Part shown: piece after piece, positions 28,526 to 63,459 of the stretch | Layout of the letters: every line of letters starts with the position of its first letter | Position numbering within the stretch: the first letter of the stretch is position 1 | IMG/VR virus record: IMGVR_UViG_3300022689_000474 | Coordinates: 62,001 to 126,000 of that record | DNA length: 64,000 nt | Strand: one strand, 5' to 3' | Origin: a virus | Program-made: the position numbers and the translations under genes | The notes under the pieces: model-generated | Seen by the model: only the letters and a program-made list of their open reading frames with translations | What the model was told of the DNA's origin: nothing | Database searches by the model: none

Positions 28526-28957
28526 ATGAATGTTATACTATTTGAATTACTTAATAAAATAGATTATTTAAGTAGAAAACCTCTTAAGATAGAAATAGGA
28601 AGTGAATTGGCTAGGGATCAATATGTATCTCTTCATAAAAGATTCCCTGATATGCCAGATGATAAGAAGTTGGGTATAGCTAACTTATTACAGAATTATA
28701 ATCTTAGAGACTTTACAGATTTAGAATTAAAGACATTATCTGAATTAAGATTAGATCTATTATTTCATAATCCTAATCAATCTATTGAAAGACAAATATT
28801 AAGGGGTAAAAGATTATATGATACTGGTTCTCCTAGAGTTTATAGATTATTATATGATAATAATGTTAATGCGGAGAATATAGAATATATGAGAGCTACA
28901 ACTTCTTTTACTCCTATTACTATTATTAAGAATTTAGCAGATATTTATATTTATTAA
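28526..28957 (+). CDS. Hypothetical protein, 143 aa
   Basis: Not recognised. It is a mostly helical, charged 143-residue protein (SELARDQYVSLHKRF, LGIANLLQNYNLRDF) without Cys or membrane spans. It follows the post-fibre hairpin by about 40 nt, so it probably begins a new transcript, and it lies 17 nt before the 2610-residue gene. A TATAAT box lies upstream (28493-28498), but no matching -35 was found. A small assembly factor or chaperone for its giant neighbour is possible, purely from position. Confidence 0.75.
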   Translation: MNVILFELLNKIDYLSRKPLKIEIGSELARDQYVSLHKRFPDMPDDKKLGIANLLQNYNLRDFTDLELKTLSELRLDLLFHNPNQSIERQILRGKRLYDTGSPRVYRLLYDNNVNAENIEYMRATTSFTPITIIKNLADIYIY

Positions 28958-28974
28958 TAAGAGGTATTTAAATT

Positions 28975-43200: not shown

Positions 43201-44169
43201 GCAGATAGGAACCCAAATCAAATATCATTTTTCTTAAAGACATGGGATTTAAATAAAAATAGAAGTGCTAGTAGAGAGTCTTGTGAATCAGATTATATAG
43301 ATGATAGAGCTAGAGCTGAACTTGAATATGAAGGTATAAGACAGAAATCGGATACAGGTTTATTTATGGAATCTTCTTTAGAAATTGCTAGTGTAGGAGG
43401 TTCTATTATAGATACTGAGGAAACTGATGTCGAAATGAATGGAAGGAAGTATGTAGGTATAAATGTAAGAAGGTTAGAGAAGAATAAAAGTTGTCCTAGT
43501 TTCATTCATATAGACTTATCTTTAAAGACAGATTCAACAGGTCTTTGTATGACACATATAGATATAGATGATAATGAGAATTGGAATATAGTAGTTGATG
43601 CTCTTATTAAATGGACCCCTTATGTAGATGGTACTGGTTATAGAAAAGTAGTTTCATATCTAAATGTAGAAGAAGTTATTCTTAAATTATGTGAATATAG
43701 AAATGTAGTTAGAATTACTTTTGATTCATGGAATAGTGCTTCTACTATACAGAGATTACATTCTTTAGGTATTATGACTGAAGAAATATCTGCTTCTAGA
43801 AGTAAACAAAAAGAATACTATTTATTAATACGAGATCTAGTAAACCAAGGTAAAGTCTTAATACCTAAAGATTCTAAATACAGGATTCAACTTATAAGTG
43901 AATTAGTTCATCTTAATATGAAAGAAAATGGGAGTATCGTACATGGTCTTTATGGTAAAGATCTTAGTGATGCTTTTGTTAATAGTTGTTATCAAATATA
44001 TAAAAGAATGGTAGAAAGTGGTCTTATTCAGGGTTATAAACCTAGTATTAATTCTCTACCTTCTAATCTTGTTAATGCTGTTACGCCCCGTTCTAAAGAA
44101 ATGACTAAACCTGTAGTTCAAAGTGGTAGAGATAAATTTAAAAAGATGAAATCATATGGCATTATATAG
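40285..44169 (+). CDS. Terminase large subunit interrupted by two inteins, 1294 aa precursor
   Basis: This is the ATPase and nuclease motor that packages DNA into the head. Without the two inteins (293 and 408 aa) the mature protein is about 593 residues, a normal TerL length. The Walker A loop is split: V98-G-R-G-G102 before intein 1, then S396-K-S after it, giving GRGGSKS. Walker B is MILDE (D506, E507). The segment NVGKG...TQRFAEEGRRVAISSGW after intein 2 is motif III or the coupling region. Nuclease acids are D1077 (FIHIDLSLKTDSTG), D1147 (RITFDSWNS) and D1226/D1229 (GKDLSDAF). It needs protein splicing to become active. The next gene overlaps by 14 nt. No small terminase was recognised nearby. 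Confidence 0.93.
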   Translation: MTFLNTQNLVGLDNYFDLLISEASTSLNAVSDLSIIDFAENIVFNGEAYLYTQQKAVLKSFYGEPLTPEEEDILINWKNREKSNWVPNRTYRDMILEVGRGGCPYIEDKVITNKGTLKYKDLIDNKSSIFTFLEKDNTIGLTSNILTWDKGLCECVQITTKTGRKEIVTLDHPYLISLGDPNSYKWLRAQYLTRENKLYLPIGLKLFGSDDSLDESFILDIVRDISNISSSIIETIELSTEYLHSLSLSYILSYLPFQLDYLLTVKKESLYLKSEVLPGDILDFLQRELSKWGVICICDYKSNIFIIKDLNSFINLLELLRSHKDKDHKINNLFNLLEFNISQGKCYDNIPRYKYGEIEYFLDEVYSVIKVGKLQTLGLEVVKSNTIVNSFISHNSKSLIASIISLYEFNNLISLEDPARYYNLISNDPIAIFLIATTATQVKETLFLKLKGYLRGSDFFRNLENKKKIEVLADQVRCPDKNVAIYAKHTNSDALVGYNLKCMILDEVARFSNKTREDGKIVSLADTLWRNVGKGCFHMNSYIYTNKGFIKAIDLLNIYQSVDYLNDIKILSYSNDSFKYLIWADDIDIWNNGIHPTIELITENGYNERVTYNHPFFIYRQGDVEPSWIEAEFINEGDYISLPKSLLPSDRSINYLEEEYTNFFEFLAYIFSFGTWFVNHGRIQDHAIEIRRTVHKEIIQVIQDLLKDIEGYRFHNNKDSTSGSKYRIFFDKKSKGYQLLKELTDRGYLINSYRSFYNDIPEFIDTLPLAELKSFLKGYYTSNCTFFDLLNPSGITIKLPQETESAARRIQRCLLLFGVISSIKIEPVRINKDKFIFNANVVCIKGVYNISLFLQSIGLSTSDFVTMKKRIDRYISLDKDKDKDKYSLPLNIEQCIDNSNKIDSINNLRWERVSNIINHPKTITIGLEVRESGLICNSILSHNTQRFAEEGRRVAISSGWYEGDPIQKLREKADRNPNQISFFLKTWDLNKNRSASRESCESDYIDDRARAELEYEGIRQKSDTGLFMESSLEIASVGGSIIDTEETDVEMNGRKYVGINVRRLEKNKSCPSFIHIDLSLKTDSTGLCMTHIDIDDNENWNIVVDALIKWTPYVDGTGYRKVVSYLNVEEVILKLCEYRNVVRITFDSWNSASTIQRLHSLGIMTEEISASRSKQKEYYLLIRDLVNQGKVLIPKDSKYRIQLISELVHLNMKENGSIVHGLYGKDLSDAFVNSCYQIYKRMVESGLIQGYKPSINSLPSNLVNAVTPRSKEMTKPVVQSGRDKFKKMKSYGII
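40591..41469 (+). other. Intein 1, in the Walker A loop of TerL (293 aa)
   Basis: Residues 103-395 of the precursor. It begins at C103, has a block-B T169-x-x-H172 (VTLDHPYL), and ends VNSFISHN with His-Asn before extein Ser396. The ending GLEVVKSN... is typical of block F. The middle shows no clear LAGLIDADG motif, so it may be a mini-like or degenerate intein. The precise insertion into GRGG|SKS of the P-loop is directly visible. Confidence 0.9.
41890..43113 (+). other. Intein 2, in motif III region of TerL (408 aa), with degenerate LAGLIDADG
   Basis: Residues 536-943. It begins at C536, has block-B T611-x-x-H614 (VTYNHPFF), and ends ICNSILSHN before extein Thr944. Two helices resemble LAGLIDADG motifs (FLAYIFSFGTW near 666-676 and LKSFLKGYYTSN near 772-783), but both lack the expected acidic residue, so the homing endonuclease is probably dead. 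A short Asp-Lys repeat is present near 42918-42940. Confidence 0.9.
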
Positions 44170-45138: not shown

Positions 45139-45723
45139 ATGCCTAAATTAATACCTCCTTGTCCTATAGATTATTCTTTTAGCCCTGGTAGGAAATATAA
45201 TCTCATTGATCCTGAAGATGTAACTGAAACTCCTATATTAGAAGCTAGAGGTTTAGTTATATTCTCTGATTATAAATTTATTCTAAAAGATGCTATAGCT
45301 GATGAATCTTTATTCTATAAATATATAACTCTTAATGATGGTCAAGTTTTAGGTATGTGGCAAGATGTTATAACTCCTCTTCCATTAGAAATTAAGTTTG
45401 ATGTTAAATATTATCATGATATTTATGTAGATATAAATACTTTCCCTAAATATGATTCGGGTTTTTATGTTTTAGATGGTGTTTTTATTACTAAAGTATA
45501 TATAGAACCTCATTGTTGTGATGGTAAAGTATATATAAGACATGCAAGAGGAGTTTATAATTGTATTAGACATGAAGGAATAGAAATAATAGAACCTTCA
45601 TTTCCAGAATGTACTAAACCATTAATTATGTATGATCCTATAGATCCTCCAGATATACAACCTCCTGAGACTGAACCTCATTTTCCTGAATGTATTCCCG
45701 ATTCACCTGAATTAGTTCCTTAG
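45139..45723 (+). CDS. Hypothetical protein, 194 aa, Pro-rich C-terminus
   Basis: Not recognised. A beta-rich core (about 1-160) includes the Cys pair HCCDG and the segment RHARGVYNCIRHEG, and is followed by a Pro/Glu-rich tail with two FPEC motifs. Its TAG stop overlaps the stop of the convergent reverse-strand gene (45720-45722), so there is no room for a terminator between them. It is probably a small virion protein that binds a partner through the tail, by context only. Confidence 0.72.
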   Translation: MPKLIPPCPIDYSFSPGRKYNLIDPEDVTETPILEARGLVIFSDYKFILKDAIADESLFYKYITLNDGQVLGMWQDVITPLPLEIKFDVKYYHDIYVDINTFPKYDSGFYVLDGVFITKVYIEPHCCDGKVYIRHARGVYNCIRHEGIEIIEPSFPECTKPLIMYDPIDPPDIQPPETEPHFPECIPDSPELVP

Positions 45724-47004: not shown

Positions 47005-50000
47005 ATGTACTTTTCTAATATATCAAATAAGAATCAATTATTCTCTCGTAGTACTTTATTTAACTCTTCTATGACTTCTGAGTTGAATAAAAAGTTCTCT
47101 TTTGATATTTATAATAATAAAAGTAATTATATTCCATCTGATTATATTAATAATTTAAGTACAGATATAGATCCTATAAATAGTCTTATAAATGAATCTT
47201 CTCTTCAATCTAGACTCTCTGGTAATACTAATCAATATTCTATACCTCCATCTAGAAAGTTATTAAATACTTCTTTTAGTCTTCCTCTTGAGAATAGAGC
47301 CCCTTATTTAGGTGGTATATCTTCTAGTCTATATAACTCTTTAACTCAATCAAATTTAGGTAATATTGATACTTCTAATATTACTCTTACACCTTCTAAT
47401 TATTCTTATGTTAAGTCTAATGTTGATTCTATAGATACTTCTAATATCGGTTTTAATAACTCATCAAAATATTCTTTCATAAAGTCAGATACATCTTCCA
47501 TAGATACTTCTGGTATTAGTTTTAATACCCCTTCTAAACCTCATTCCTCTTCTATTAATGAGGCTATTAGATCTAATATTTCAGGAAGTTCTATAGTTAT
47601 TCCCTCAAGTACTTATTTAGATCCTGTCTCTAGAAATCAAGCTTATAGAGATACACTTAAACCTCAAAGTGGTTATATTGATAGTACAACTAAAGGTTTT
47701 AATCAACATTTTAGAGATTTAATGAAGCCGAAGTATGTAGCTTTAAGAGAAGAAAGTATTCGGGAATATGTTGATACTATCAAACCACAAAGTGGTTATA
47801 TGGAAGATGTAAGTAAAGATATACATTTAAGATATAAAGATAATAGTAAAAGGGGTATCTCAAGTATCAATAATAAAGACTTTTTAGAATATTTACCTTC
47901 TGAGGATATTAATTTTAGGAGTGCTAATAATCTAGAAGGGGTTAAAGAATATAATCAATTAAATTTCAAATCTAAAACTAAAACTTCTGTCTCTTCATTA
48001 GCAAAGAAAGTTGAATTAACTCAAGCAGGTTTGGATAATTATCAAAGAGTCATTCAGTTAGTATTCGACTTTGAGAATAGAAGTACAGAAGGAGTCAGAC
48101 TTCCTCAATTAGCTTCTATGAGGGAAAAAAGATATGAAATGTTGGGGGCTGGTGCTTTATACGACCCAAGAAAGAATGTAGTTGCAGTAGATGACTCTAT
48201 TATAGGGCAATTAAATAGAGGTAAACTTACAAAAGAATCTTTCGGCACTTTAGCTCATGAATTAGCACATTCTTATCAGAACCACTTTGGTAATACATGG
48301 AAAAAACAAAGAGCCTTTGAGAATAGAGTTTATTCTGCTGATATAGATGAAGTTAAACCAGGTAATTTAATTCAAGATAAATATACCAAAAGGGTAGTAA
48401 AGAGATCATTAGAATCTATAGCTCTGACTAAACAAAATATGCCGGAAGGTCTTACAAAAGAAAGAAGAGAAAGTGCTATCAGAAGATCTACTGCTAATGA
48501 GTTAGATGCATATTCATTAGAGGATAGAATTACTCGGAGTGTTGATGTAGACCGAATATTTGATCCTGATTATAAACTTACTAAAGTTGGTTATCGTACT
48601 GAAGATACTATTAGAAAAGTAAGAGCTACAAGAGAATTTAATAAAAAATTACTTACAGGTACTATAGGTACAACAGCAGTAGTAGGTTTAGGTGCTATTG
48701 CTTATTCATTATTTAGAAATAGAGAGGAGTCAAAATCTGAAGAGAGTAATAATGATAAATTAGTGTTAGGAAGTATTGTAGGGTCTTCTTTCTTATTAGG
48801 AAGTATTAGACAGACTACATTTGGCCCTTATAAAACTTCAGAACATTTAGGAGAATCTTCAATTGCTCAAAGAAATTTAAAGAAAGCTACTAAAAAGGTA
48901 TTTGATTATCTAGGGGTAGACTTTGATCTTTCTCAAACTCCTACAATTGCTGCTTTTGGACCTGATATTCCAAAAGGATTAGGAGGTGCTTATGTAGCAA
49001 AGTATAATGAATTGGTATTAAATCAAGAAATATATGGTGAACTAGTAAGTGGAAAAATCTCTAGAAATTCATTCTCCCTGTTGGCTCATGAATTAGTTCA
49101 TGCTTATCAAGCTAATGTAGGTGGTAATATTCAGAAAAAACTTCTTTCTGATGAAGAAGTAAATCTATTACCTAAAAAAATTCTTGATATGGCAAAGAAG
49201 TCTGCAGCAGTTCAACCGTATGAATCTAAAGAATATTGGGAATCTTTTAGAAAAGAAGTAGAAGCTTATGACGTTCAATTTCAAATATTAGCCAAAAAAA
49301 AGAAATATATAAGTCCTAAATATAGGCAGACACGAATTAATCCCGTTTCTACATCTATTGATCAACCTACTTCTCCTAAACCACCCTTTCAGCCCTCTTT
49401 ACCTCCTACTAAGCCTAAGCCCCAATTACTTCTACCTCCGGCCAAGTCTATTAGTCCTAGATCTGTTAATCAATCTATTCTACCACCCGGATTAACCGTC
49501 CCATCTCCTATTTCTCCTTACCCTAGTCCTCCTGGTAAGTCTAAGCCCCAATTGCTTCTCCCTCCTGCTAAGCCTATTAGTCCTAGATCTATTAGTCAAT
49601 CCATTTTACCCCCCGGATTAACTATTCCATCTCCTATTTCTCCTTCACCCAGTCCCTCTCCTAAGTCTAAGCCCCAATTACTTCTACCTCCTGCTAAAGT
49701 TATAAGTCCTAGACCTGTTAGTCAATCTCTTCTACCCCCCGGATTAACGGTTCCATCTCCCATTTCTCCTCCCCCTAGTCCTTCCTCTAGTAGGTTGGGG
49801 AGTCAGTTACTTTTACCTCCTGCTAAAGCTATAAGTCCTAGACCTGTTAGTCAGTCCATTATACCTCCGGGACTAACTATCTCCTCTCCTATTTCTCCTG
49901 AAATTAGTTCTTCTCCAAGCCCCCCTTTTAGTCCAAGACTTAATAATCAACCACTCTTACCTCCTGGGAAATCACTAGAAGAGGTAAATATGATAAAAGG

Positions 50001-53000
50001 TATTGGTCTTAAGAACATTATTCAGGGACAAAATCTTAGATCTTTAAGAAATACTTCTTTAGGAGCTATTGGGATAGGAATAGGTTTGGCTATAGGTATA
50101 AATCAATTTATTTATTCATCAAATAGAGAAATAAGTTCTAGAGAATTTAAAGAGATAGACGATTCCCTTGATAGAAGGATGAGAAGTGTTCGGATTAATA
50201 GAGAGCAAGAAAGAATGGAAATAGAGGCTGAAGAAAGGGTAAATAAAATGATTGAAAATAGTATTACAGAAGAGGATAAAAGATTTATAGAAGAGCATTC
50301 TAACCAACTAAAAGAAAGACTACAATCATTAAATAGTGCTAGAGTCTCACAAGACAATACAGTCAACAGTACGTCTAGTAGTTCTAATGAACTTCCTTCA
50401 ATTCTTCCAGAAAGAACAATATTTGGGAGTATTTCACCACCATTAGTTTTATCTAATGAAATTGATCTATTAAATGAACCTTTAGACTCAAGGACTCAAA
50501 CTAAAGTTGCTTCTGGATCTCAACAGTATGTTCAAAGACAAGAAGCATTAGCTCGAGGAGAGTTGTATACAGATGAAGGTGCATCTATTTCTATCGGGAA
50601 ATGGACTCGTGAACCTATGACTAATAGATCTAATGAAGAATGGAAATCTCTTTTAAAGAAAGAATCAGACTTTGTTAGGTCATTAAATAGAGATGATCAA
50701 ATAAATGTATTATTGGGTGATAGTCTAACTCAATGGTTTAGACCGTATCAACTTCCTCAAAAAGAAGATACAACTTGGTTAAATCAAGGAATATCCGGTC
50801 AAAATATACAACAGATTGATCAAAGGATTGATATCCTTAAATCAATGAAAGGAGATAAAGTATTCATAATGGCCGGTATTAATGATTTAAGACAAGGAAG
50901 ATCTGATAAAGAAATACTAGAAAGATACTCTTCTATGCTTGATAATGTCAAGAAGAGTGATGTTGCTGATGAAGTTGTAGTACAATCTATACTTCCCACA
51001 AGATTAGATAATTTACCTACTAATAGGATTAAGTCACTTAACTCTCAAATTAAAGCTATGGCGGAGAAGAGAGGAATGACTTATATTGATCTCCTCCCCC
51101 ATTTCTTAAATGAAGAAGGTCGGTTAAAAAAAGAATATACTACTGATGGTATACATCTTTCTAGAAAAGGATATGACACTTGGTCTAAATTAATGTCTCA
51201 ACATCTAAATGGAAAGGGAGAAGAACAAGATATTAATATTTTGGGGAATCAAGAGAAATTAGAAAGGAACACTAATCAGGCTGGAGAAAGTATTATACCT
51301 CCATCTAGTTCAGTAGCTAGACAGGCAGCTAAAAATAATAAAGATAAAGAACAGACTCTTTCTTCAAGTGCTGGAGGTGGTGGTAGTAAACCACCTGGTA
51401 CTCCTAGAACTTCTACTCCTCCTCCTCCTGAAGAACCTGATCCTCGAAAGAAAGCAGGACTATATACTAATATGGATGATCAGGAAAAGAAAAGTTGGGT
51501 GGATAGATTAAAGTCTGCTGTAGGGTTTATGAGAGATGAAAAAGTTGAAGATGTTATTAAAGTAGTAGGTGTTACTGCTGGTATTACTGCTGGTATGTTA
51601 GGTACTATTAAAGGTGTAGAGGTTCTATTCTCTAATGTGAATAGAATCTTTAGTTCTTTGAGAAGTTCTATAGCTCTCTCTACTTCATCTAGTTCCTCCC
51701 CTGGTCAATCAGTTACTTCCCCTCAGCCTACCTCTTCTACTAGAACTCCAGGTCAACCAGCTGTCCCATCCCAATCCTCTTCTCCTACTACACCTGTATC
51801 TCAATCTACCCCTTCTACTAGAACTCCAGGTCAACCAACTGTCCCCTCCCAACCCACTTCTCCTACTACACCTAGGGCTCCAGGTCAACCAGCTGTCCCA
51901 TCCCAATCCTCTTCTCCTACTACAACTGCATCTCAATCTACCCCTTCTACTAGAACTCCCGGTCAACTAGTTATCCCATCTCAACCTTCTTCTCCTACTA
52001 GGGCTCCAGGTCAACCAGTTAGTCCACCTCAACCAAGAGGGCCTGCCCCTTCTTCTTCAGTAGGGAGTAACTTACCAAATAGATCTATAAGTAGTGGACC
52101 GCCTTCATCTCCATTATCAAGTACTCCTTCAGTAAGAACTAGAGGTAAAGGAGGTATGGGATTTATGTTAGGTGCAGGTCTTGTATCTTTAGGAGTAATG
52201 GGAGTTATTGGAGGAATAGCTGGTTATATGGTCTTTTCTCCTAGTGAAGATAGAACATCAGGAGAAAGGAGAGATGATTTCTATTCCAGTCCAGAAGTAG
52301 AACAAAGTAGAAAAGAAAGAGAAATAAGAGAAAGACAGTTAATAGAACAAGAGAAAAGAATTACGGGGAGACCAGATAGAAGTATAGATAGAGATACTAG
52401 TTTATTATTAAGGAATAGTAGAGAAAATAGGGACGGAAGTTCTGTAAGAAGGCAATTATCTTATAGAGAATATATGGCATTACAGACGGGAAGAAGTGAA
52501 GAACATTCATTACAACCTGAAATTAGTAGACCTTCTTCTTTATCTTTAGATGAACATTTAGCTATACAAAACCAAGGCCAAATCCGTAGAAGAGTTAGTA
52601 GAGATATAGATCAATCTAGAGGTATTAGAGCATCTGATTTATCATTTGAAGAGTTTTTAGAGATACAATCTGAAAGACCAGAGATAGAAAGAAGAAGAGA
52701 ACGTATAAATAGGGGGGATAGTAGATCTAGAACTCTATCATTAGGAGAATATCTATCTATGGGTGAAGAAAGAAGAGTATCTATAGGGAGTGATGATAAT
52801 AGATCTAGAGCTAGATATCTAGCCATCATGGAAAGTAGTGAATCTTCTATAGATGATAGGTATAGAAGAGCTAATAGATTAATAATAAATAGACCTGATA
52901 GGGAGTTAACGACTCCACTATTACCTCAAGGAAGTCATGAACCCCGTCCAGAAAAACACATTGACATGAGTTATGACGAGGAATATTTAGGAATATGGGA

Positions 53001-56000
53001 ATTTGGTTCTAAAACTAGAGGTCTATTAAGTCAAATACAGAAAGGTACATTATATGGAGGGTTTTATCAAAGGCCCTCAAGTCCTTATGGAAATATATAT
53101 ATTGATTTAGCTAGTAGAGAAGTTCCTACTATAATGCCTCCTACTAGTGGTACTGGATATCTATATGAAAATAGGAAAAGATATATGGAAAAGTTAAGAG
53201 AAAGTGGAGTTCCAGTAGTACAGGTTGGTGACTTCCACGCTAAAGCATTTATAGGTACTAATATTAAAGATGAAGAAATAGCTATAGTACTAACAGGTAA
53301 TTTAACTAGATCTGCTTTAGAGTCTGGTGTTCCGGATGAGGCAATTATGACTAATGAATCTATAAAAGATAGATTTTTAAGAACTTTTTTCAATCAACGT
53401 CCAAAGTTTTATCAAAGTAATATTGGTTTAGTTGTAAAAGATTCAGAAAAGATTGGTCAACTTAAAGAAATCTTATTTAATATACAGACAAAGGGGGTAT
53501 CTTACTCAACAGAAGATTTTATAGTAGGGGGAGCTATGGGAAATAGTAGAGAGAGAATAGTAGATTTTATACTACAAAAGTCTAAAACTGGAGATGATAT
53601 TAGTATTACTTCACCATATATTGATGACCCAGAAATAGTAAGAGCTTTAGTTCAAGCTAAACAACAATCTGGTGTTACTATTAGACTAATAACTTCTAAA
53701 GAAGGTTCTGGAATAAGAGCTTATTCACAAGCCATTTCAACACTTCAAGCAAGTGGTATAGAAGTATATGCTCCAAAGGGAACTCAGTCTTATTTACCTC
53801 ATGAGAAGATGATACTTATAGGTAATGATTATATAGTAGGTTCTCATAACTTTACTTCTAAGGCTTCTGATAGACAAATAGAAATAAGTCTAATGGGTAA
53901 TGACCCTAGAATAGCTTCTTTAATGCAAGCTGATTTTATCAGACAAATAGAAGAAGGTTATGTATCTCTTAAAGAAGGTTCGGGAGCTAGAAGATCTATG
54001 ATGTTAGGTACCAGTCCTTTACTTAGTGGTTTATACGCAGGTAGTGATAAAGCTGGTACTCTTTTATTAGACCCTAATATGGGGGCTTCTTATTTCTATG
54101 GGAGAGCTTTATATAATAATCAACAAAGACAGGCTAGAGCTCATCATAGAGTTATAGATCAAGAGACTTCAGGTGTAGCTACAGCTATGTATAAAGCTGC
54201 ATATCTAGCTAAATTGAATGAAGGGGAATTAATTCCACAACATAGTGATTTAGATAGAATACCAGGAATAGTACAACAGTATGATAGAGAGTTATATACA
54301 CCTGGTATAGGTGCAATATTAAATGAAAAAGTCTTTATGAGATTAGGTCTAGGAAGATTATATAAAGATGAGCTAGGATTCTTACCATCAGCGATGGGAG
54401 CTTTAGGTTCAGTCTTAGATAAAACTTATTTATATTTAAATCCCAATGCTAACTTTCCAGGAATTACGCATTATTTTAAGGAAATGGATATTAAAGATTC
54501 TTCATATAGAGATAGACCTGCACCTGTAGGATTATTTGAGGCGGGGTTAAGTGAATTAGCTTTCTTAGGACAAGCATCAGCTCAAGGTATATTATTCTAT
54601 ATGATTGTAGGAGAACCTATATCTATGTTCTTATCAGAGACTATAAAGAATGATGTAGAAAGAGTTATTTCTAATAGTCTTAGTACAGATTTAAATCAAT
54701 TCTATTCAACTTCATCTAGACTTCATAGGAGGGCAAACTTATCAATGGCTAGTGCTTTTAAAAGTCCCCTATCAGCTAGGATGGAAGTATTATCTACGAT
54801 GGATAATTTAAGGAAGATAGATGCTGAATACTTTGGTGCTGAGAATCCGGGCCTTAGTATTTATCATTTCTCTTCTATGTATTTGAGAGGGAGAAGTGGA
54901 ATATTATTGAATGAAGTTATGAAACCATTCTTAATGGAAATAGTTAATCCATATGATCCTATGGATGTACAAAGTAATAGAGGTTTTTCTAATGTTATAG
55001 ATAGATTTATAGAAGAAGTTAGTAGACCTGTAGGATTAGCAGCTATAAGTCCTTCTGATCCTCATTTAGATTCAATAAAAATAACTAGAACAGATGTACA
55101 AAGGGGATTATATAAACAAGGGTTTTCTAGGAATCAAGTACAAAGTATGAAGATAGATGAAATAATAGGATATAAATATGCTAGAGAACAATTTGTTAAT
55201 AAAGCGAGAGATTTCTTAGATACATCTACATTTAGATCTTCTTTAATATCAAATAGAGTAAATAGCTTCAAGACTTTTATTGATAGATTTGGAAATTATC
55301 AAGATTTTAATACTAAACAATTAGCTAATCTATTTAGTCAATTAGAAATAATAGAGAATAGTGTAGATCCTACAGATGTAGATGTAATAGAAGATATACA
55401 TATGATAAGAAGGAGATTGATGCAAATAGGTGCTCAGATAGAAGATCCAGCTAAAAGATTATCTAGAAATAGGAAAGCTGATATCAGTCTTACTAAAGAA
55501 GGAAGGTTAATAGGTGATATCGACTTTGAAATTACTAATGAAGGAATAGATAGATCTTCATCTATAGCTAGAAGATTACAAGATATATTAGATGAGATAC
55601 CTTTAAATCCTCTTAACTGGAGAATGTTTAATAAGTATCGTGCTATTAGAGGTATAACGGGTCAAGACTTAGAAAGTGAAGGTTATTTAAGAATAACGAC
55701 TACAGGACAACAAGATACTGGAAGAGTTATTCCAAGAGTAAGAACTGTAGGAGAATTATTTTCTTTCACTGATTTAACTCAAGTAATGAGGGAGATATTA
55801 TTTGGAAGAGGAGGTTTTTCTCAACATTTAGCCAGAGCGGAAGTATTTAGTGATAGAGAAAGATTAATAAGATTAAATAGAGTTTCTCAAGTAAGTAACT
55901 TTGAAGATCTAACCTTTAAAGATGCTAGTAGTATTTGGTTTGATAGAAAGATAGGTTATGCAGGTAAGATGGCTGTAGATAAAATTCATACTGTATGGAA

Positions 56001-59000
56001 TGCTACTATTGGTTTTGCTTATGAATCTTCTAAAAGAGTTATAGATAAATATAGATATTTACAAGGTTCATTATTGGCACCTTTTGGAATAGGTAGAGAA
56101 AAAGGATTATTAAGGGGTAGTAAGGCCTTAAAGGATATGGAATATTACTTAATGAATATGGAAGATGAAACTACAGGTCTTAAAGCTATAAGTTGGGGTG
56201 ATGATTTAGATGAAATAAAAGAAGCAATAAAGTCTTTAGAACAAGAAGCAATAGAAGAGTTTAGAAGTTTAAGTAATACTGAAAGATTGACTAAATATGG
56301 TTCTTTAAATGAATCAGAGTATATAGATAGATATGTTAGTGAAAATATACAGAGAGCTACTAGTAGTATAGATCCAACTGCTAGAAGATTGAATTGGTTA
56401 GATGAAAATGTTGTAAAAAGTCTTGCAGAAGCTGAAGAAGTTAGAAGTAGATTTATGAATAATCCCGAGAGACCTTTTGACTTTGTAGAAATACAAGAAA
56501 GGTTAAGAGCAGAGACTTTAGGTTTATTTAGAATGGGGACTGTTAAAGATGAAGCTTTAAAGAATAGAATGGTTCGTATGAGTCCGGGTATAGGAAGAGA
56601 TGTAACTGGAAAGATGACTAAAGGTACTTTAACTACTACTGCTTTATCTATATCAGTATTATCATCTTTAATATTATCTGATTTATTCCAAAGTACTTCT
56701 GGAGTTAGTCTATTTACTCAATTGGGTTTCTCTCTATTTAGTGGAGGTGGTCCTATAGGAAGATTAATGGGTAATGAACAAGGAGAATTGGGTATCAATA
56801 CACATTTTGAAGGAGATAGATTATTTCCTGATATACCTGGTCTAGGTAGAGTTGGAACTACATTATTAACTACAGCAGGTACACTATATGCTGCTCATGT
56901 AATAGGTACATCTGCTTTAAGGGCTGAAGCTATAAATTATAGTTTCACGACTGATTTCATGTTTCAACAATTAAAGTCGGAGACTGGAACTGATATTGTT
57001 TTATCAGCAGCTAGAGGATCAAATGAAGCGGATATCTCATTAAGACAAAAAGTATTAAGTGGAGAAATAAAGAAAGGAAGGGAGTTATCAGATTTTATAG
57101 ATAACAATCCTACTAGGACTATTAGTATGAGAATGAAGTATAAAGATACATTTGAAGCTTCACTGTCTCTAATGAAAAAGGGAGATATGTTAAATATCCG
57201 TTCTATGAGATTTAGAGGCAATACATGGTTAAATACTATGATTGCCTATGCAGGCTTATCAATTGGTGGTAAAGCTTTAGTCTCTTCTACTTCTTCTTTA
57301 CTCAATCATATGAGGGAATCTCAAGGGAGTCTCGATCCTTTAGCTTTTGGTGTTGCTGGTGCATTGATTGGATCTAAAATGACTAGAAGTTTTGGTGGAG
57401 GTCTTGCCGGTCTTTTAATAGGTGGATTAGGTTCTTATGTTATGAATAAGATGGGTGTTAAAGTATTTAATCTTGGAGATCCTGGTTCGGTTGTAGATAA
57501 TCAAGGGGCTACTCTATTAGGAGAGTTATCCGACTTTAGGAATTCTGTAATGGCCAACTTTGATAAAAGTTCTAGAATTGAATTGATGGCAGCTTTAGTA
57601 TCTCAAGGAATAGAATCACCTTATGGTTTATTTAAACAAGAAGCTTCAGGTACTGATGTTAAAGTAGTAGCTAAACAGGTTACTTCTCCTATAATACAGT
57701 TCTTTATGGCAAAAAGAACTAAGGGACAATATACTGATTATTCAGGAAAGGTAGTTGATCCAGGTATAACTACATATTCTTTAGGTATACAAGGACCGCC
57801 TATAACAGGGATGTCAGTTGGTATCCAATTACCATTTAAGATATTAAAAGATAGACCGGAGAATAATAGTTCTGGATATATGAATAGAGGCAGTAGAAAT
57901 TTTAATCTTGTATATAATGATGAAACAGATATTTTAGATTATTTATATGGAGTAGGAATGATAGCTACATCTGCTCAGATGTTAAGTTATTCATTAAGAA
58001 CTATTGGTGCTATAGGTTCTCCTTTAACTCCATCAGCTGGTAGTACTTTAGGACAATATAGAGAAACTGCCGATAATTTATTTACAGAATCAGGTAAAAG
58101 GATAGGTAAATTTGGTACCGCAGTAGAAGATGTTGGAATGATATTACCTAATACTATTCATAGAGTAGCTCAATATATCTTCTCTTCTGATTATGATGTC
58201 TATAATCAAATAGAACTAAGAATGAAAAGGAGATATGAGATGTCTAAAGGTATAGAGGGTGGAGATCTTACATCTGTTAGATCTTTTAATAGATCTAGAA
58301 TGTTAATTAGATATACATCTAAAGCTGCTTTTGGGGCTTTTGTATTAAATTTTGGGGCTGGTCTAGTACAAGATGATGATAAATTTCAAGAGAATTCTTT
58401 AGTACTAAATATGAGTGGTGTTGGTTTGGGTGTGGCTGCTGGAGTAGGTCAAGATTATCTAGCTGGTGTATCTAGAGCTATGAGAGTATCTAATGCTGGT
58501 AGAGCTCTACGTATGACTAGATTACGTAAAAATTTACTTCCTTATGCTTTATCTGGACTTGTGGGATTTCATCTTACTGATGATAGATTTGGGGTTTTTA
58601 CTGGGATGAGTAATGAATATGTTAAACAACAAAAACATGATGAATATTATTCTTATCATAGGGAAGCAGTTATAGGTACTTATGCTGTAGCTATGGGTAC
58701 ATTAGGTGCTACATTTGGAAGAATGGGTATGGATTCAGGTCAAGTATTAGAAGAATATTCAAGAGCCCTTAATTCTTTAAATGAATTAGAAGATATACAA
58801 CAGGCAAATACAGCAGGAGGGGGAGTATTAAGAAGAGTAAGAAGAGCATATCAAGCTCATCGAGTAGAAGAATTAGAAAAAGAAGCTCAACAGATAGTAG
58901 ATTACTTCAGACATAGAAGTAAACAAATAGAAGAGACATTTGATTTAGTATCTTCAGCTTATCCTAATGTAGCCCCTGAGACATTAAGAGAATTCCATAT

Positions 59001-62000
59001 TAATAAGGCAAGACAGATTATAGAAGATACGGGGTCTATGTCAGCTAGGGATATAATGAATAGACAGGATGAAGCTACAGCATTAATACAACATGTAAAT
59101 AGATCTAGGGGTGCGTATATTGATGCAAGGTTATCTAGTAGAAGATTTTCAGGTAGATTAATGAAAGGTATGATAGGAGTTCCAATAGCTACACATATAA
59201 TAGGATCTTTATTACATTCTATTAACCCTGAAGTTTTTAATGCTAATAAGTTCTATGATTGGTTGGAGAGTAGAGGTACTAATTTTGATGCTAATGCTCC
59301 ATTTATGAAAACAAGAAATGTTATAGCAGATGCTATTAGAGCTATAACATTTACTGATAGATCAATAGACTCTGGTATTAGTTTAGATCAAACTTTTAGG
59401 AGTGCAGCAGCTTCAGGAGGTTTTTATCAACCTGTATCTCATGAAAAGTTATTAATACGACAGACTGGATATGCTAGGTCAATGACCAAGTTATTCAGAG
59501 ACCTATCTGAGATAGCTATTCTTGATGATGTAAATCCATTTATAAGTGGTCCTTTAGGTGCAGGTGCTTCTATTAGGAGAGGAGATAGAGGTACAGTATT
59601 AACACCTTATATACAAATACAAACATCTGGAAGTGATATATCAACAGCTTCATACTCTATGAGTTCAAGATTCTTCTTTAGAAATGTATTACAAGGGAAT
59701 AATGATTTAGTATTTGAGATACAAAATGCTATGAGGATGAAGAATGAATTTATGAAGAAAGGTTTAGATCCTTCAGTAGTAATGAGAAGAACAGCTTTAA
59801 ATATATTAATGGCTACTTCATCATTACAACCTAGAAAGAAACCAAGAAGAGCTTCTAGATTATCAGACAGTCAATTATCAAGTCTAGCTTCGGATACTTT
59901 ATTAATGGCATCATTAAAGGAAAGGATGGCAATACAGAAACATAGTAATTATCAACCAGTAGAGTCAATAGTGACTCAAATGTTAATAGAACAAATGATG
60001 CCAACTCATAAGTATTTAGATAATATGTTAATGAATGTATTATCTCCAGAGAATGCTAAGAAGTTAGGTATAGGTGTAGGTAAGAATTTGGCAGCATATA
60101 TGATGGGAGATCCTTATTACTTATTATCTAGAAAGATAAATATGATGGGTATAAAATTCTTTGGAGATCAACCTGGTGGGGTAAGAGGTAGAGATATATC
60201 TAGTCAAGCTAGAGATTTTCCTGATTTATTTGGAGAGTATAGTTCTAAACATTTAGAGACATATACTATGGAAAATAGTAAGAGATCTCCTTTCTTAGAA
60301 TCATTAAGTGATAATAGTAGTCGTATATTTGGAGCTCTACCAGCACCTGTTAGTTTAATGTTAGGTTTGACTCTAGGTCTTAGTATTACTTCTAGACTTA
60401 TTGATTTTGCCAATGTTATTAAAGGAGGACATGAAATAAGTGAAGGTCAAAAGATGTTAAGAGAAATATCTAGTGAAAGATGGTTCACTAATGCTCCTGA
60501 ATCAGATAAGTTAAGGAATGTATGGGTCAGTATGAATTATCCCCAAATAGGAAGTTCAGAGCCTCTTGTAGCTGGAGCAAAAACATTACCAATCTTAAGT
60601 AAAGGATCTTTTCACTTCTTATTAAATCCTGCCTCTCATGATTCTTATAAAGTATCTCAATCTTTAAGAACTGGTTTATCAGAAGTACAGAAACAATTAG
60701 ATGAAGCTAGATTAAATTTTAGAGGTCAATCAGTAAATATATTTGAATATTTACAGATAAATAAAATAAAAGAATTAGAGGCCATATTAGGTGGAGTACC
60801 TAATCAAAGTCATATACAAGCTATGACAGTATATGATAATTCAGGTAATAGGGTATATGGTATTGATACAAATAAAGCTTGGATGGATAACTTAAATGAT
60901 GCTAGAGATTTACTTATGACTTCATCCAAGGGTATGGAACCTGAAACTGCTAGAAGGATGAAAGCTGTAATATCTGCTATGGAGACTGAGATTAAATCTC
61001 GTCATATAACTAATTTAAGTGATACTATTTTGGATCAAGTAACAGAACACTTTACTAAAGAAATAGATCATTATATTGATCAATATGTAGATTCTTTAAT
61101 GAATAATAAGGTTCAGATAAGTAGAAATGATTATAGAAGCATGTTGGAAAAAGCGAATATATCTGATATAGAAAATAGATTAGATAAATATTTTCCTTCT
61201 GCTCCTGGAGGTGGACCTATTAAATCAACTGTTGATGTTCCTGTAGCTGCATTTTTTATACCTAATGCCTCACCTGAAGAGATATTAGGAGTTAAAACAG
61301 AACAAGATTTATACAAATTAATTGAGGCGAGAGGAGAAGCTACTGGTCAGTTAGATGCTATATCTACAACTGATAGTTCAGGTGTTAGAGTAGCAGATAT
61401 GAGAACTAAACTTAAGTCGGCTGCAGCTAATTCTATTAGAGAAGAAGTAGCTAGAGAGTTAAAATTATTTAGTAATGACCCTAAGAAATTATCTAGACTC
61501 AGTTCTGGTCTCACAGGATCTATAAAACATATTGCTTCTTCAGTAACTAATAAAATATTCTTAAATGCATTAGGAGGGAGGACAGGAGAAGTTGAGAAGT
61601 CATTCTTTTCAGTCTTACGTCATCATTGGGGAGGTTTAGGAGTTACTCCTTCAGCAGATACTAAAAGAAGTCTAATAAATAATCTTAGGTCATTCATGTC
61701 TAGGATGACTAAAGGTTCAGCCCCTTATATTGCAGAAGATGAAATAGAAGTGGCTAAATTCCATTCATCAGTTTCTGTAGAGAGAGCTAAAAGAAAAGCT
61801 TTATCTTCTGTTGAATTACCAGAAGAAATGGCAGAATTAGAAGCGAGGAAAGCAGCAGGAGATCCAACAGCTTTAGATATAGCTAGAAAAACAGAAGAAA
61901 TAAATTTAAGGAAAGCTCCTTTATTAACTAAAGCAAGTAGAGGTCTTCAAAGTTTCTGGGATGTGGCTACATCTATTTTTGATATTATTGAAGCTATAGA

Positions 62001-63459
62001 TATATTTTCATCTTTCTCACGATTAAGTAGTGCTAGTAGAAGTAATATGACTAGAGCTCAAAAGAAATTAATTGCATCTGAAGTAGGTACTACAATTAAT
62101 AACTTTACTCAAGGTATGGCATTTATGGTTGCTATGAATACTATAAATATGGGTATTCAAGCTAGTGCTTCTGCTATAGGTTGGAAAGCTCTAGCTCCCA
62201 TTTTATTAATAGCAGGTGTTATAGCAGTAGTAGGTGGAGTCACTTATATGAAAGATCAGGAGAATAGGGAGAGTTGGAGTGGATTCTGGAAAGGGGTAAG
62301 TGAATTCTGGGGAGATACTATCTTCAATTATACAGAGAAGGCTGAGAAATGGGGAGGAGGTGGTAGAAAGACAGATGCAATACTTATGGGAACAGGTGGT
62401 GCTTTAGGAGGTTTAGCTTTATCTGCATCTGCATTAAGTATGGCTCCAGGTACATTAATGGGTGTATTTGGAGGAGTATCATTATTAGCTGCTGGTCAAT
62501 TTTTATTAGCAGGTTTAGCTATAGGTGCTGGTTTAGGAGTAGCAGCAGCATTAATAGCTCCAGAAGCTACATCAAATCTATTTGATAATTTAGTAAATAG
62601 TTTATCAGATATAACTATAGGAGGATTTCCTATATTTGGAATGTTTTTAACGAAACCAGGTAGTGGTTTATATATGAAAGGATACTCAGAACCTTCTTTA
62701 GGTGTAAGTAGAACCACTCCATTTATGGTAGGAGGTGTAGAACAAGTTATAGCGGCAGATTATAGAAGATATCTACTAGCTGCCAAAGATATAACGGGTG
62801 GAGATGCAGCAGGTCTATTCTTAAGTACTACTATATATGGATCATTACCAACAAGAGGTAATGATGTAGTATCAAGATACGGAAAAACAATGAGTATAAG
62901 ACCTGGAGGTGTAGTAGATCCAGTAATAAGGAGAGAAATACAATTAAGAGGTCAACACTTTAATCAAAGTGTTATAGGAAGACAAATGTGGGTGGCAATG
63001 TTAAGTAATGCTACTAATTATAGAGCTATCAAACAGGCTGATTATAGAGATTCTATAAGGTCAGCTACTTTAAGTATGGAGGCAATGAAAGAAGATAATT
63101 CTCCAGAAGTAGAAAGTAAGAACTTAAAATATAAAAACAAATTAAGAAAGAGGAATCCAGAAATTAGAGGTGAAATTATAGGTCAATATGTAGATGATGT
63201 AGGTAAAGCTATAGATAGAGCGGAGAAACAAAAAGAAGAACCACTATTATTAAGTTTTGATAAAGAGTCATTAAATAATACGAATGTATTATCAAAGGAC
63301 TATATAGTAAATGGATTGGATAGAAAGAGTACAAATAGTAATATTCCAGTAGTCAGTTCTACAACTCAAGGACATATAGTAAGTAAAGTACCTAATCCAG
63401 AAGGGAGTTTAAACGATACAATATTAGTAAGTCCTTATAGTGAATATGATAATGTCTGA
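47005..63459 (+). CDS. Giant multi-enzyme virion protein (possible tape measure), 5484 aa
   Basis: Domains in order are as follows. Ser/Asn-rich N-terminus. Zincin 1 (about 335-530) has H418-E-L-A-H422 and E499. A membrane-like segment lies at about 549-570. Zincin 2 (about 610-765) has H695-E-L-V-H699 and E753. Pro-rich repeats cover about 795-990, and a hydrophobic helix about 1016-1036. An SGNH hydrolase (about 1215-1400) has S1240, G1262, N1293, D1381 and H1384. Hydrophobic segments (about 1520-1540, 1718-1746) flank Pro/Thr/Gln repeats. A two-HKD phospholipase-D-like domain (about 1990-2330) has H2078-x-K2080 with a GN-x-T block, and H2266-x-K2268, D2275, S2280, N2282. A 3000-residue helical C-terminus has many Gly/Ala-rich hydrophobic segments. 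That C-terminus resembles tape measures, but an ejected polyprotein fits equally well. It overlaps the resolvase start by 8 nt. Confidence 0.85.
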   Translation: MYFSNISNKNQLFSRSTLFNSSMTSELNKKFSFDIYNNKSNYIPSDYINNLSTDIDPINSLINESSLQSRLSGNTNQYSIPPSRKLLNTSFSLPLENRAPYLGGISSSLYNSLTQSNLGNIDTSNITLTPSNYSYVKSNVDSIDTSNIGFNNSSKYSFIKSDTSSIDTSGISFNTPSKPHSSSINEAIRSNISGSSIVIPSSTYLDPVSRNQAYRDTLKPQSGYIDSTTKGFNQHFRDLMKPKYVALREESIREYVDTIKPQSGYMEDVSKDIHLRYKDNSKRGISSINNKDFLEYLPSEDINFRSANNLEGVKEYNQLNFKSKTKTSVSSLAKKVELTQAGLDNYQRVIQLVFDFENRSTEGVRLPQLASMREKRYEMLGAGALYDPRKNVVAVDDSIIGQLNRGKLTKESFGTLAHELAHSYQNHFGNTWKKQRAFENRVYSADIDEVKPGNLIQDKYTKRVVKRSLESIALTKQNMPEGLTKERRESAIRRSTANELDAYSLEDRITRSVDVDRIFDPDYKLTKVGYRTEDTIRKVRATREFNKKLLTGTIGTTAVVGLGAIAYSLFRNREESKSEESNNDKLVLGSIVGSSFLLGSIRQTTFGPYKTSEHLGESSIAQRNLKKATKKVFDYLGVDFDLSQTPTIAAFGPDIPKGLGGAYVAKYNELVLNQEIYGELVSGKISRNSFSLLAHELVHAYQANVGGNIQKKLLSDEEVNLLPKKILDMAKKSAAVQPYESKEYWESFRKEVEAYDVQFQILAKKKKYISPKYRQTRINPVSTSIDQPTSPKPPFQPSLPPTKPKPQLLLPPAKSISPRSVNQSILPPGLTVPSPISPYPSPPGKSKPQLLLPPAKPISPRSISQSILPPGLTIPSPISPSPSPSPKSKPQLLLPPAKVISPRPVSQSLLPPGLTVPSPISPPPSPSSSRLGSQLLLPPAKAISPRPVSQSIIPPGLTISSPISPEISSSPSPPFSPRLNNQPLLPPGKSLEEVNMIKGIGLKNIIQGQNLRSLRNTSLGAIGIGIGLAIGINQFIYSSNREISSREFKEIDDSLDRRMRSVRINREQERMEIEAEERVNKMIENSITEEDKRFIEEHSNQLKERLQSLNSARVSQDNTVNSTSSSSNELPSILPERTIFGSISPPLVLSNEIDLLNEPLDSRTQTKVASGSQQYVQRQEALARGELYTDEGASISIGKWTREPMTNRSNEEWKSLLKKESDFVRSLNRDDQINVLLGDSLTQWFRPYQLPQKEDTTWLNQGISGQNIQQIDQRIDILKSMKGDKVFIMAGINDLRQGRSDKEILERYSSMLDNVKKSDVADEVVVQSILPTRLDNLPTNRIKSLNSQIKAMAEKRGMTYIDLLPHFLNEEGRLKKEYTTDGIHLSRKGYDTWSKLMSQHLNGKGEEQDINILGNQEKLERNTNQAGESIIPPSSSVARQAAKNNKDKEQTLSSSAGGGGSKPPGTPRTSTPPPPEEPDPRKKAGLYTNMDDQEKKSWVDRLKSAVGFMRDEKVEDVIKVVGVTAGITAGMLGTIKGVEVLFSNVNRIFSSLRSSIALSTSSSSSPGQSVTSPQPTSSTRTPGQPAVPSQSSSPTTPVSQSTPSTRTPGQPTVPSQPTSPTTPRAPGQPAVPSQSSSPTTTASQSTPSTRTPGQLVIPSQPSSPTRAPGQPVSPPQPRGPAPSSSVGSNLPNRSISSGPPSSPLSSTPSVRTRGKGGMGFMLGAGLVSLGVMGVIGGIAGYMVFSPSEDRTSGERRDDFYSSPEVEQSRKEREIRERQLIEQEKRITGRPDRSIDRDTSLLLRNSRENRDGSSVRRQLSYREYMALQTGRSEEHSLQPEISRPSSLSLDEHLAIQNQGQIRRRVSRDIDQSRGIRASDLSFEEFLEIQSERPEIERRRERINRGDSRSRTLSLGEYLSMGEERRVSIGSDDNRSRARYLAIMESSESSIDDRYRRANRLIINRPDRELTTPLLPQGSHEPRPEKHIDMSYDEEYLGIWEFGSKTRGLLSQIQKGTLYGGFYQRPSSPYGNIYIDLASREVPTIMPPTSGTGYLYENRKRYMEKLRESGVPVVQVGDFHAKAFIGTNIKDEEIAIVLTGNLTRSALESGVPDEAIMTNESIKDRFLRTFFNQRPKFYQSNIGLVVKDSEKIGQLKEILFNIQTKGVSYSTEDFIVGGAMGNSRERIVDFILQKSKTGDDISITSPYIDDPEIVRALVQAKQQSGVTIRLITSKEGSGIRAYSQAISTLQASGIEVYAPKGTQSYLPHEKMILIGNDYIVGSHNFTSKASDRQIEISLMGNDPRIASLMQADFIRQIEEGYVSLKEGSGARRSMMLGTSPLLSGLYAGSDKAGTLLLDPNMGASYFYGRALYNNQQRQARAHHRVIDQETSGVATAMYKAAYLAKLNEGELIPQHSDLDRIPGIVQQYDRELYTPGIGAILNEKVFMRLGLGRLYKDELGFLPSAMGALGSVLDKTYLYLNPNANFPGITHYFKEMDIKDSSYRDRPAPVGLFEAGLSELAFLGQASAQGILFYMIVGEPISMFLSETIKNDVERVISNSLSTDLNQFYSTSSRLHRRANLSMASAFKSPLSARMEVLSTMDNLRKIDAEYFGAENPGLSIYHFSSMYLRGRSGILLNEVMKPFLMEIVNPYDPMDVQSNRGFSNVIDRFIEEVSRPVGLAAISPSDPHLDSIKITRTDVQRGLYKQGFSRNQVQSMKIDEIIGYKYAREQFVNKARDFLDTSTFRSSLISNRVNSFKTFIDRFGNYQDFNTKQLANLFSQLEIIENSVDPTDVDVIEDIHMIRRRLMQIGAQIEDPAKRLSRNRKADISLTKEGRLIGDIDFEITNEGIDRSSSIARRLQDILDEIPLNPLNWRMFNKYRAIRGITGQDLESEGYLRITTTGQQDTGRVIPRVRTVGELFSFTDLTQVMREILFGRGGFSQHLARAEVFSDRERLIRLNRVSQVSNFEDLTFKDASSIWFDRKIGYAGKMAVDKIHTVWNATIGFAYESSKRVIDKYRYLQGSLLAPFGIGREKGLLRGSKALKDMEYYLMNMEDETTGLKAISWGDDLDEIKEAIKSLEQEAIEEFRSLSNTERLTKYGSLNESEYIDRYVSENIQRATSSIDPTARRLNWLDENVVKSLAEAEEVRSRFMNNPERPFDFVEIQERLRAETLGLFRMGTVKDEALKNRMVRMSPGIGRDVTGKMTKGTLTTTALSISVLSSLILSDLFQSTSGVSLFTQLGFSLFSGGGPIGRLMGNEQGELGINTHFEGDRLFPDIPGLGRVGTTLLTTAGTLYAAHVIGTSALRAEAINYSFTTDFMFQQLKSETGTDIVLSAARGSNEADISLRQKVLSGEIKKGRELSDFIDNNPTRTISMRMKYKDTFEASLSLMKKGDMLNIRSMRFRGNTWLNTMIAYAGLSIGGKALVSSTSSLLNHMRESQGSLDPLAFGVAGALIGSKMTRSFGGGLAGLLIGGLGSYVMNKMGVKVFNLGDPGSVVDNQGATLLGELSDFRNSVMANFDKSSRIELMAALVSQGIESPYGLFKQEASGTDVKVVAKQVTSPIIQFFMAKRTKGQYTDYSGKVVDPGITTYSLGIQGPPITGMSVGIQLPFKILKDRPENNSSGYMNRGSRNFNLVYNDETDILDYLYGVGMIATSAQMLSYSLRTIGAIGSPLTPSAGSTLGQYRETADNLFTESGKRIGKFGTAVEDVGMILPNTIHRVAQYIFSSDYDVYNQIELRMKRRYEMSKGIEGGDLTSVRSFNRSRMLIRYTSKAAFGAFVLNFGAGLVQDDDKFQENSLVLNMSGVGLGVAAGVGQDYLAGVSRAMRVSNAGRALRMTRLRKNLLPYALSGLVGFHLTDDRFGVFTGMSNEYVKQQKHDEYYSYHREAVIGTYAVAMGTLGATFGRMGMDSGQVLEEYSRALNSLNELEDIQQANTAGGGVLRRVRRAYQAHRVEELEKEAQQIVDYFRHRSKQIEETFDLVSSAYPNVAPETLREFHINKARQIIEDTGSMSARDIMNRQDEATALIQHVNRSRGAYIDARLSSRRFSGRLMKGMIGVPIATHIIGSLLHSINPEVFNANKFYDWLESRGTNFDANAPFMKTRNVIADAIRAITFTDRSIDSGISLDQTFRSAAASGGFYQPVSHEKLLIRQTGYARSMTKLFRDLSEIAILDDVNPFISGPLGAGASIRRGDRGTVLTPYIQIQTSGSDISTASYSMSSRFFFRNVLQGNNDLVFEIQNAMRMKNEFMKKGLDPSVVMRRTALNILMATSSLQPRKKPRRASRLSDSQLSSLASDTLLMASLKERMAIQKHSNYQPVESIVTQMLIEQMMPTHKYLDNMLMNVLSPENAKKLGIGVGKNLAAYMMGDPYYLLSRKINMMGIKFFGDQPGGVRGRDISSQARDFPDLFGEYSSKHLETYTMENSKRSPFLESLSDNSSRIFGALPAPVSLMLGLTLGLSITSRLIDFANVIKGGHEISEGQKMLREISSERWFTNAPESDKLRNVWVSMNYPQIGSSEPLVAGAKTLPILSKGSFHFLLNPASHDSYKVSQSLRTGLSEVQKQLDEARLNFRGQSVNIFEYLQINKIKELEAILGGVPNQSHIQAMTVYDNSGNRVYGIDTNKAWMDNLNDARDLLMTSSKGMEPETARRMKAVISAMETEIKSRHITNLSDTILDQVTEHFTKEIDHYIDQYVDSLMNNKVQISRNDYRSMLEKANISDIENRLDKYFPSAPGGGPIKSTVDVPVAAFFIPNASPEEILGVKTEQDLYKLIEARGEATGQLDAISTTDSSGVRVADMRTKLKSAAANSIREEVARELKLFSNDPKKLSRLSSGLTGSIKHIASSVTNKIFLNALGGRTGEVEKSFFSVLRHHWGGLGVTPSADTKRSLINNLRSFMSRMTKGSAPYIAEDEIEVAKFHSSVSVERAKRKALSSVELPEEMAELEARKAAGDPTALDIARKTEEINLRKAPLLTKASRGLQSFWDVATSIFDIIEAIDIFSSFSRLSSASRSNMTRAQKKLIASEVGTTINNFTQGMAFMVAMNTINMGIQASASAIGWKALAPILLIAGVIAVVGGVTYMKDQENRESWSGFWKGVSEFWGDTIFNYTEKAEKWGGGGRKTDAILMGTGGALGGLALSASALSMAPGTLMGVFGGVSLLAAGQFLLAGLAIGAGLGVAAALIAPEATSNLFDNLVNSLSDITIGGFPIFGMFLTKPGSGLYMKGYSEPSLGVSRTTPFMVGGVEQVIAADYRRYLLAAKDITGGDAAGLFLSTTIYGSLPTRGNDVVSRYGKTMSIRPGGVVDPVIRREIQLRGQHFNQSVIGRQMWVAMLSNATNYRAIKQADYRDSIRSATLSMEAMKEDNSPEVESKNLKYKNKLRKRNPEIRGEIIGQYVDDVGKAIDRAEKQKEEPLLLSFDKESLNNTNVLSKDYIVNGLDRKSTNSNIPVVSSTTQGHIVSKVPNPEGSLNDTILVSPYSEYDNV
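49400..49980 (+). repeat. Four Pro-rich repeats of about 126-132 bp in the giant gene
   Basis: A unit beginning KPQLLLPPAK and containing ISPR...SILPPGLT and PSPISP (about 43 residues) is repeated four times, with a partial fifth. DNA such as agccccaattacttctacct recurs near 49420, 49547 and 49670. It links the second zincin to the next hydrophobic helix and is probably a flexible spacer. Confidence 0.8.
51690..52045 (+). repeat. Pro/Thr/Gln/Ser-rich repeats in the giant gene, including a near-identical 90-bp pair
   Basis: Segments of the type TRTPGQPAVPSQSSSPTT recur. One copy (about 51750-51840) is nearly identical at DNA level to another 132 nt downstream (about 51882-51972). It joins the SGNH half to a hydrophobic helix and the phospholipase-D-like half. 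The near-identity suggests recent expansion or contraction. Confidence 0.8.
52450..52840 (+). repeat. Four short LSxxEYLxIQ-type repeats in the giant gene
   Basis: Related short peptides occur in a row: QLSYREYMALQTG, SLSLDEHLAIQNQ, DLSFEEFLEIQSE and TLSLGEYLSMGEE, separated by Arg/Ser/Asp-rich spacers. They look like a repeated helical docking motif just before the phospholipase-D-like domain. Confidence 0.6.

Follow-up and report, generated by a model that had tools for sequence, protein, structure and literature searches.

A giant frame and its enzyme domains

The window, by which is meant the whole 64,000-nucleotide stretch of DNA analysed here, covers positions 62001-126000 in a virus record whose length is 152,052 bases. 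From 47005 to 63459 on its plus strand 5,484 codons follow one another without a stop, far above chance expectation. This frame, the domains within it and two genes ahead of it are as follows.

40285..44169, plus strand: terminase large subunit with a probable intein (Intein_splicing, LAGLIDADG_3), the genomic anchor of the giant gene
45139..45723, plus strand: small ORF of 194 aa, whose My-WqHQDG homologue also lies between terminase and giant gene
47005..63459, plus strand: giant ORF, 5,484 aa (open frame and homology of its C-terminal part)
47989..48640, plus strand: zincin-like peptidase domain 1 (HExxH and ExxAY), HELAHSYQ at 48256-48279 and third ligand ELDAY at 48499-48513
48649..48705, plus strand: hydrophobic segment 1, residues 549-567 (Kyte-Doolittle)
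48856..49450, plus strand: zincin-like peptidase domain 2 (HExxH and ExxAY), HELVHAYQ at 49087-49110 and EVEAY at 49255-49269
49402..49899, plus strand: Pro-rich linker with 3.9 copies of a 126-bp tandem repeat (repeat analysis)
50056..50115, plus strand: hydrophobic segment 2, residues 1018-1037 (Kyte-Doolittle)
50713..51177, plus strand: SGNH/GDSL hydrolase domain, residues ~1237-1391, catalytic blocks complete (Lipase_GDSL_2 E=2e-23; phrog_14008 E=3e-27)
51553..51609, plus strand: hydrophobic segment 3, residues 1517-1535 (Kyte-Doolittle)
51728..52034, plus strand: Pro/Ser/Thr-rich linker with 48-132-bp tandem repeats (repeat analysis)
52150..52239, plus strand: hydrophobic segment 4, residues 1716-1745 (Kyte-Doolittle)
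53236..53943, plus strand: PLD-type domain with two HKD motifs (53236, 53800), in the putative nuclease slot (PLDc_2 E=3e-22)
54079..63033, plus strand: conserved core, residues 2359-5343, with a GRLYKDE box at 54352 (blastp and alignment with gp120 and WOL31340; phrog_29513; viral contig relatives)
62164..62571, plus strand: C-terminal hydrophobic segments inside the core, residues 5054-5084 and 5150-5189 (Kyte-Doolittle)

Is a frame of this length real? A preliminary description of this DNA, made from the letters alone, had taken it to be so, and it was right, as homologues of the last ~3,300 residues occur in numerous other phages and a frame artefact is thereby ruled out. No Shine-Dalgarno site is evident at 47005, which makes the start codon uncertain, and because of the 126-bp and 132-bp tandem repeats in the linkers the exact length could be one repeat unit off. 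The product is among the largest phage proteins seen, and the virus is related to phages of bloom-forming cyanobacteria.

The same description had proposed an SGNH hydrolase, a phospholipase-D-like domain and two peptidases. The first two are confirmed by Pfam, at E=2e-23 and 3e-22, with complete motifs: the Ser, Asn and Asp-His blocks of the SGNH domain are all there (GDSLTQ, GIND and DGIHLS), and the HxK motifs at residues 2078 and 2266 (HAKAFIG and HEKMILIG) are those of the PLD superfamily. The peptidases fared less evenly. Both regions, which are paralogues with 29% identity when aligned to each other, have HELxHxYQ followed further on by ExxAY, which together supply the ligands usual in zincins, but their Pfam matches are marginal (best E=1e-3, below cut-off), and so they are called zincin-like by motif; no meaningful match to either was found in the PDB. 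The SGNH, PLD and two zincin-like domains give one polypeptide at least two disparate activities, the pattern described for polyvalent proteins. The last 3,000 residues had been thought to carry tape-like hydrophobic segments, and here the earlier picture needs correcting. Strong segments, meaning those with a mean Kyte-Doolittle value of at least 1.5, number seven, and since four of them sit between the enzymes in the N-terminal half and only three fall within the final ~1,050 residues, the tape-like character does not extend evenly over the last 3,000 residues.

A conserved core beside the terminase

The C-terminal part of the giant matches phrog_29513, and in tblastn it leads to a hypothetical protein encoded right after terminase in Ma-LMM01, MaMV-DC, MaMV-DH01 and other Microcystis phages, and to WOL31340 of the Microcoleus phage My-WqHQDG, also encoded right after terminase. 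Profile scans of viral contigs added several further distinct uncultured lineages with the core, while among bacterial genome contigs no core relatives were found. The alignable core runs from just upstream of the GRLYKDE box to near the C-terminus, and comprises ~2,300 residues in most members and ~3,000 here. Most family members have 2.8-3.5 thousand residues: Ma-LMM01 gp120 has 2,898, MaMV-DH010143 of MaMV-DH01 has 2,899 and WOL31340 has 4,151, and the uncultured ones are L016 (2,961), L020 (3,209), L018 (3,564), L021 (2,806), L087 (2,796), L088 (3,513), L091 (2,882) and L109 (2,877). Glycine-rich hydrophobic segments are present in all members examined. The family has been public since Ma-LMM01, annotated only as hypothetical proteins.

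That the window protein is the longest of the family is due to its own N-terminal extension, ~2,150 extra residues of enzymes and Pro-rich linkers that are missing from most relatives. Its zincin-zincin-SGNH arrangement is in no relative found, and a close-relative search among viral contigs returned no relatives of the extension. In gp120, MaMV-DH010143 and WOL31340, of 2,898-4,151 aa, the core is homologous to that of the window protein and has the same place beside terminase, and My-WqHQDG shares the PLD domain; zincin or SGNH domains were not found in these three.

In every relative examined the giant gene adjoins terminase within the late structural region, and in the window terminase, baseplate and tail genes surround it, a late virion and packaging neighbourhood of the type in which polyvalent proteins are encoded. 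The terminase large subunit itself, of 1,294 aa, has a probable intein that matches Intein_splicing at E=2e-7 (below cut-off) and LAGLIDADG_3 at E=1e-4; contig G014 has an enlarged terminase too, of 1,027 aa, whose alignment takes in both parts.

What gives the first clue to function is the position just ahead of the core. It is occupied by a PLD-type domain in the window protein (E from 2e-23 to 3e-22) and in My-WqHQDG (E 3e-11), by an SNase domain in L016, L020, L018 and L087 (E 2e-14 to 7e-7), and by Endonuclease_NS, a DNA/RNA non-specific endonuclease, in L088 (E=3e-33); L091 and L109 were judged by eye, the former showing a pair of PLD-type HxK motifs and the latter beginning like an SNase. 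No nuclease domain was detected in Ma-LMM01 gp120. With PLD, SNase and Endonuclease_NS exchanged at one position the family looks like a nuclease carrier, and as non-specific nuclease activity is what three unrelated folds have in common, the position is most simply read as a nuclease slot. On the same simplest reading, drawn from sequence comparison, the PLD domain of the window protein would be a Nuc-type nuclease rather than a phospholipase. Such exchange at a fixed position provides the first functional hypothesis for the gp120 family, and one that is cheaply testable in isolated phages.

Tail length and the tape-measure question

Could the giant be a tape measure, and of what? The preliminary description had multiplied 5,484 residues by 0.15 nm to propose a record tail of 0.7-0.8 um, with the 5,006-residue P74-26 tape as precedent. 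That is now very improbable, as ~2,150 of the residues belong to the N-terminal extension with its enzymes and Pro-rich linkers, and the homologous part in MaMV-DH01 goes with an ordinary tail. The contractile tail of MaMV-DH01 is 230 nm in the results and 260 nm in the abstract of its description (PMC9927357), which for a homologue of 2,899 aa gives 0.08-0.09 nm per residue, a value measured on a relative and not on the present phage, and short of the usual ~0.15 nm. For comparison, the modelled C-terminal helix of the A-1(L) tape gp13 ends at residue 689 and the tail is 104.5 nm (PMC10966104), the phage G tape gp183 has 2,893 aa for a 450 nm tail and T4 gp29 has 590 aa for 92.5 nm (PMC8570332), so that all three have 0.15-0.16 nm per residue. 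If the core is a tape in the MaMV-DH01 family, then either its packing has about double the usual density or the measuring is done by only about half of its residues. With the same scaling PLD and core (~3,200 residues) would give the present phage a tail of ~0.25-0.29 um. What stands of the earlier picture, without the record tail, is a late-region giant of several enzymes that is plausibly virion-borne.

A more modest form of the idea, in which the core measures a tail of ordinary length (~0.2-0.35 um) and has enzymes at its N-terminus, much as the P23-45 tape carries an RNA polymerase, we think rather doubtful. The 5,002-residue tape gp96 of P23-45 has RNAP, metallopeptidase and membrane domains (PMC10770324), hydrophobic segments such as those present here are typical of tape measures, and in the tail clusters (sheath, tube, hub-like protein and baseplate) of this phage, Ma-LMM01 and My-WqHQDG no conserved tape-like ORF is found, so that one of two giants, the second of which is described below, may hold the tape role. 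By that elimination the second giant qualifies just as well. The gene, however, is beside terminase and not after the tube gene, sheath and tube being ~55 kb upstream in the record, though the position of tape genes is not strict in all phages; MaMV-DH01 has only half as much tail per residue as is usual; and, as weak evidence, the composition is less helical, with a mean helix propensity of ~1.01 for the core vs ~1.08 for the P74-26 tape. As with the P23-45/P74-26 fusion of tape and RNA polymerase (PMC10770324), the window protein has ~5,000 residues with enzymes and membrane segments, but the two have no significant similarity (blastp E>0.6), and the window protein is without DxDGD and encoded outside the tail cluster. 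Because neither the usual length per residue, on the relative, nor the usual gene position was found, it is not filed here as a tape measure, though the core may still lie in the tail. Since tape measures are themselves ejected, the ordinary-tape possibility overlaps the delivery function considered below.

Two other ORFs of the window were considered for the tape role and rejected. One, of 1,581 aa at 2914-7659, has low helix propensity, is rich in Ser, Asn and Gly and has no homologue in Ma-LMM01 or My-WqHQDG. The tail of Ma-LMM01 is ~209 nm, and the other, of 1,428 aa at 15228-19514, has a length that fits a 209-260 nm tail, but it matches DUF4815 (E=1e-56) and is beta-prone.

Proposed delivery from the virion and a second giant protein

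The explanation favoured here, to which we give somewhat better than an even chance, is that the giant is a virion-carried delivery protein which brings a non-specific nuclease and other enzymes to the host cell. It would be packed in the particle and let out at infection, when the core may enter or span the host envelope while DNA enters, its glycine-rich hydrophobic segments inserting there, and the N-terminal enzymes would get to periplasm or cytoplasm. The targets of the nuclease ahead of the core, be its type PLD, SNase or NucA, would be host DNA or whatever other nucleic acid is encountered during entry; the zincin-like domains may cut host proteins, or free modules through self-processing; the SGNH esterase could strip acetyl groups off surface polysaccharide; and the whole probably acts alongside a candidate virion RNA polymerase, the second giant protein. 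That the protein is part of the virion, is ejected and inserts into membranes, that its nuclease is active and what its other enzymes do are all things that we infer, from the exchange of nucleases, the place beside terminase, the polyvalent pattern, the hydrophobic segments and the co-occurrence with the second giant. Against delivery are that gp120 itself has no detected nuclease, that AlphaFold gives a 341-residue core segment a pLDDT of only 45, that the protein has none of the Pfam marker domains of polyvalent proteins, and that a co-packaged non-specific nuclease must be kept off the phage's own DNA.

Disparate enzymes on one polypeptide encoded near virion genes are a described pattern for injected polyvalent proteins, for which self-processing by proteolysis has been proposed as a theme (PMC5512222). 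The window protein shares with those of Iyer et al. 2017 (PMC5512222) several unrelated enzymes, zincin-like peptidases among them, and a late-gene neighbourhood in a portal-terminase phage, but it differs in its membrane-rich core and in having no common marker domain detected; that paper nowhere uses the words SGNH, phospholipase or transmembrane. It has, then, the architectural and contextual features of polyvalent and ejection proteins, and is a candidate for injection.

The giant virion proteins of N4-like and crAss-like phages, which are short-tailed, invite comparison as they are very large and delivered together with DNA, and the N4-like RNAPs carry fused zincins; homology between these proteins and the window protein was not detected. 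Alternatively the giant could act outside the virion, as a protein made late and located inside the infected cell or in its envelope, with a part in superinfection exclusion, host DNA breakdown or lysis. A RuvC-like resolvase is among its downstream neighbours, and in My-WqHQDG a PD-(D/E)XK nuclease is there, but the late structural and packaging position in every relative, the very large size and the co-occurrence with the other giant make this improbable.

That other giant, of 4,838 aa, is encoded outside the window and upstream of portal, at 16006-30522 of the record (L038:107-14623). Homologous to it are gp080 of Ma-LMM01 (3,562 aa), a protein of My-WqHQDG that is truncated, and 14 loci on viral contigs. 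DxDGD, the catalytic signature of two-barrel RNA polymerases, and the one by which the virion polymerase on the P23-45 tape was recognised (PMC10770324), is kept at one position in every locus examined, mostly as GDFDGD, in a region where mean pairwise identity is 26%, and an invariant RxPxG lies ~65 residues ahead of it; if the protein is shuffled, DxDGD is expected ~0.08 times per copy. The second giant also has a weak match to a PLD-like domain (E=4e-4). When the DFDGD block was compared by hhalign with the P74-26 tape and E. coli beta-prime the DFDGD motifs were paired, at a probability of just 20-24%, so that it is the signature and its invariance that carry the polymerase assignment. Profile searches of the PDB (A2, A3, A5 and A6, the peptidase region among them) gave no meaningful matches. 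AlphaFold gave the DFDGD region a pLDDT of 49, which like the value for the core segment is too low for fold searches, and the protein stays a candidate virion RNA polymerase, annotated as such in no relative.

Both giants are in this record (G000), Ma-LMM01, My-WqHQDG and the contigs G001 (251 kb), G008 (107 kb) and G009 (190 kb). No second giant was found in G014 (168 kb), but as that contig also yielded no homologues of portal, capsid, sheath and tube it is probably partial and its lack of the second giant is uninformative. New to the gp120 family are the function suggested by nuclease exchange, a member that exceeds all others in size and has three more enzyme domains, and the association with a candidate virion polymerase. 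It is tempting to go further and to see in cyanophages a two-giant virion delivery machine, with a gp120-family tape or ejection protein whose nuclease is interchangeable, joined in this phage by an esterase and peptidases, and a gp080-family virion RNA polymerase, though as a whole this is speculative and on present evidence rather unlikely. If true, Ma-LMM01-type phages, on the current view dependent on host sigma-70 throughout, would bring inside the particle their own polymerase and a nuclease that attacks the host. In the published account Ma-LMM01 is transcribed by the host enzyme alone (PMC5780444). The gp080 polymerase, if active, would overturn that host-only view and help explain host takeover by phages of bloom-forming cyanobacteria.

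Other genes of the window merit brief mention. A VanY-type D-Ala-D-Ala carboxypeptidase (E=2e-42) is encoded at 159-794 in the tail region, where Ma-LMM01 and My-WqHQDG have no homologue. A 379-aa ORF at 13529-14668, an oxidoreductase conserved within the tail region, is a homologue of Ma-LMM01 gp106, annotated as a putative lysine/ornithine N-monooxygenase, and of a My-WqHQDG oxidoreductase. The 2,610-aa ORF at 28975-36807 is partly conserved (phrog_37225), and is probably a tail fibre or adhesin.
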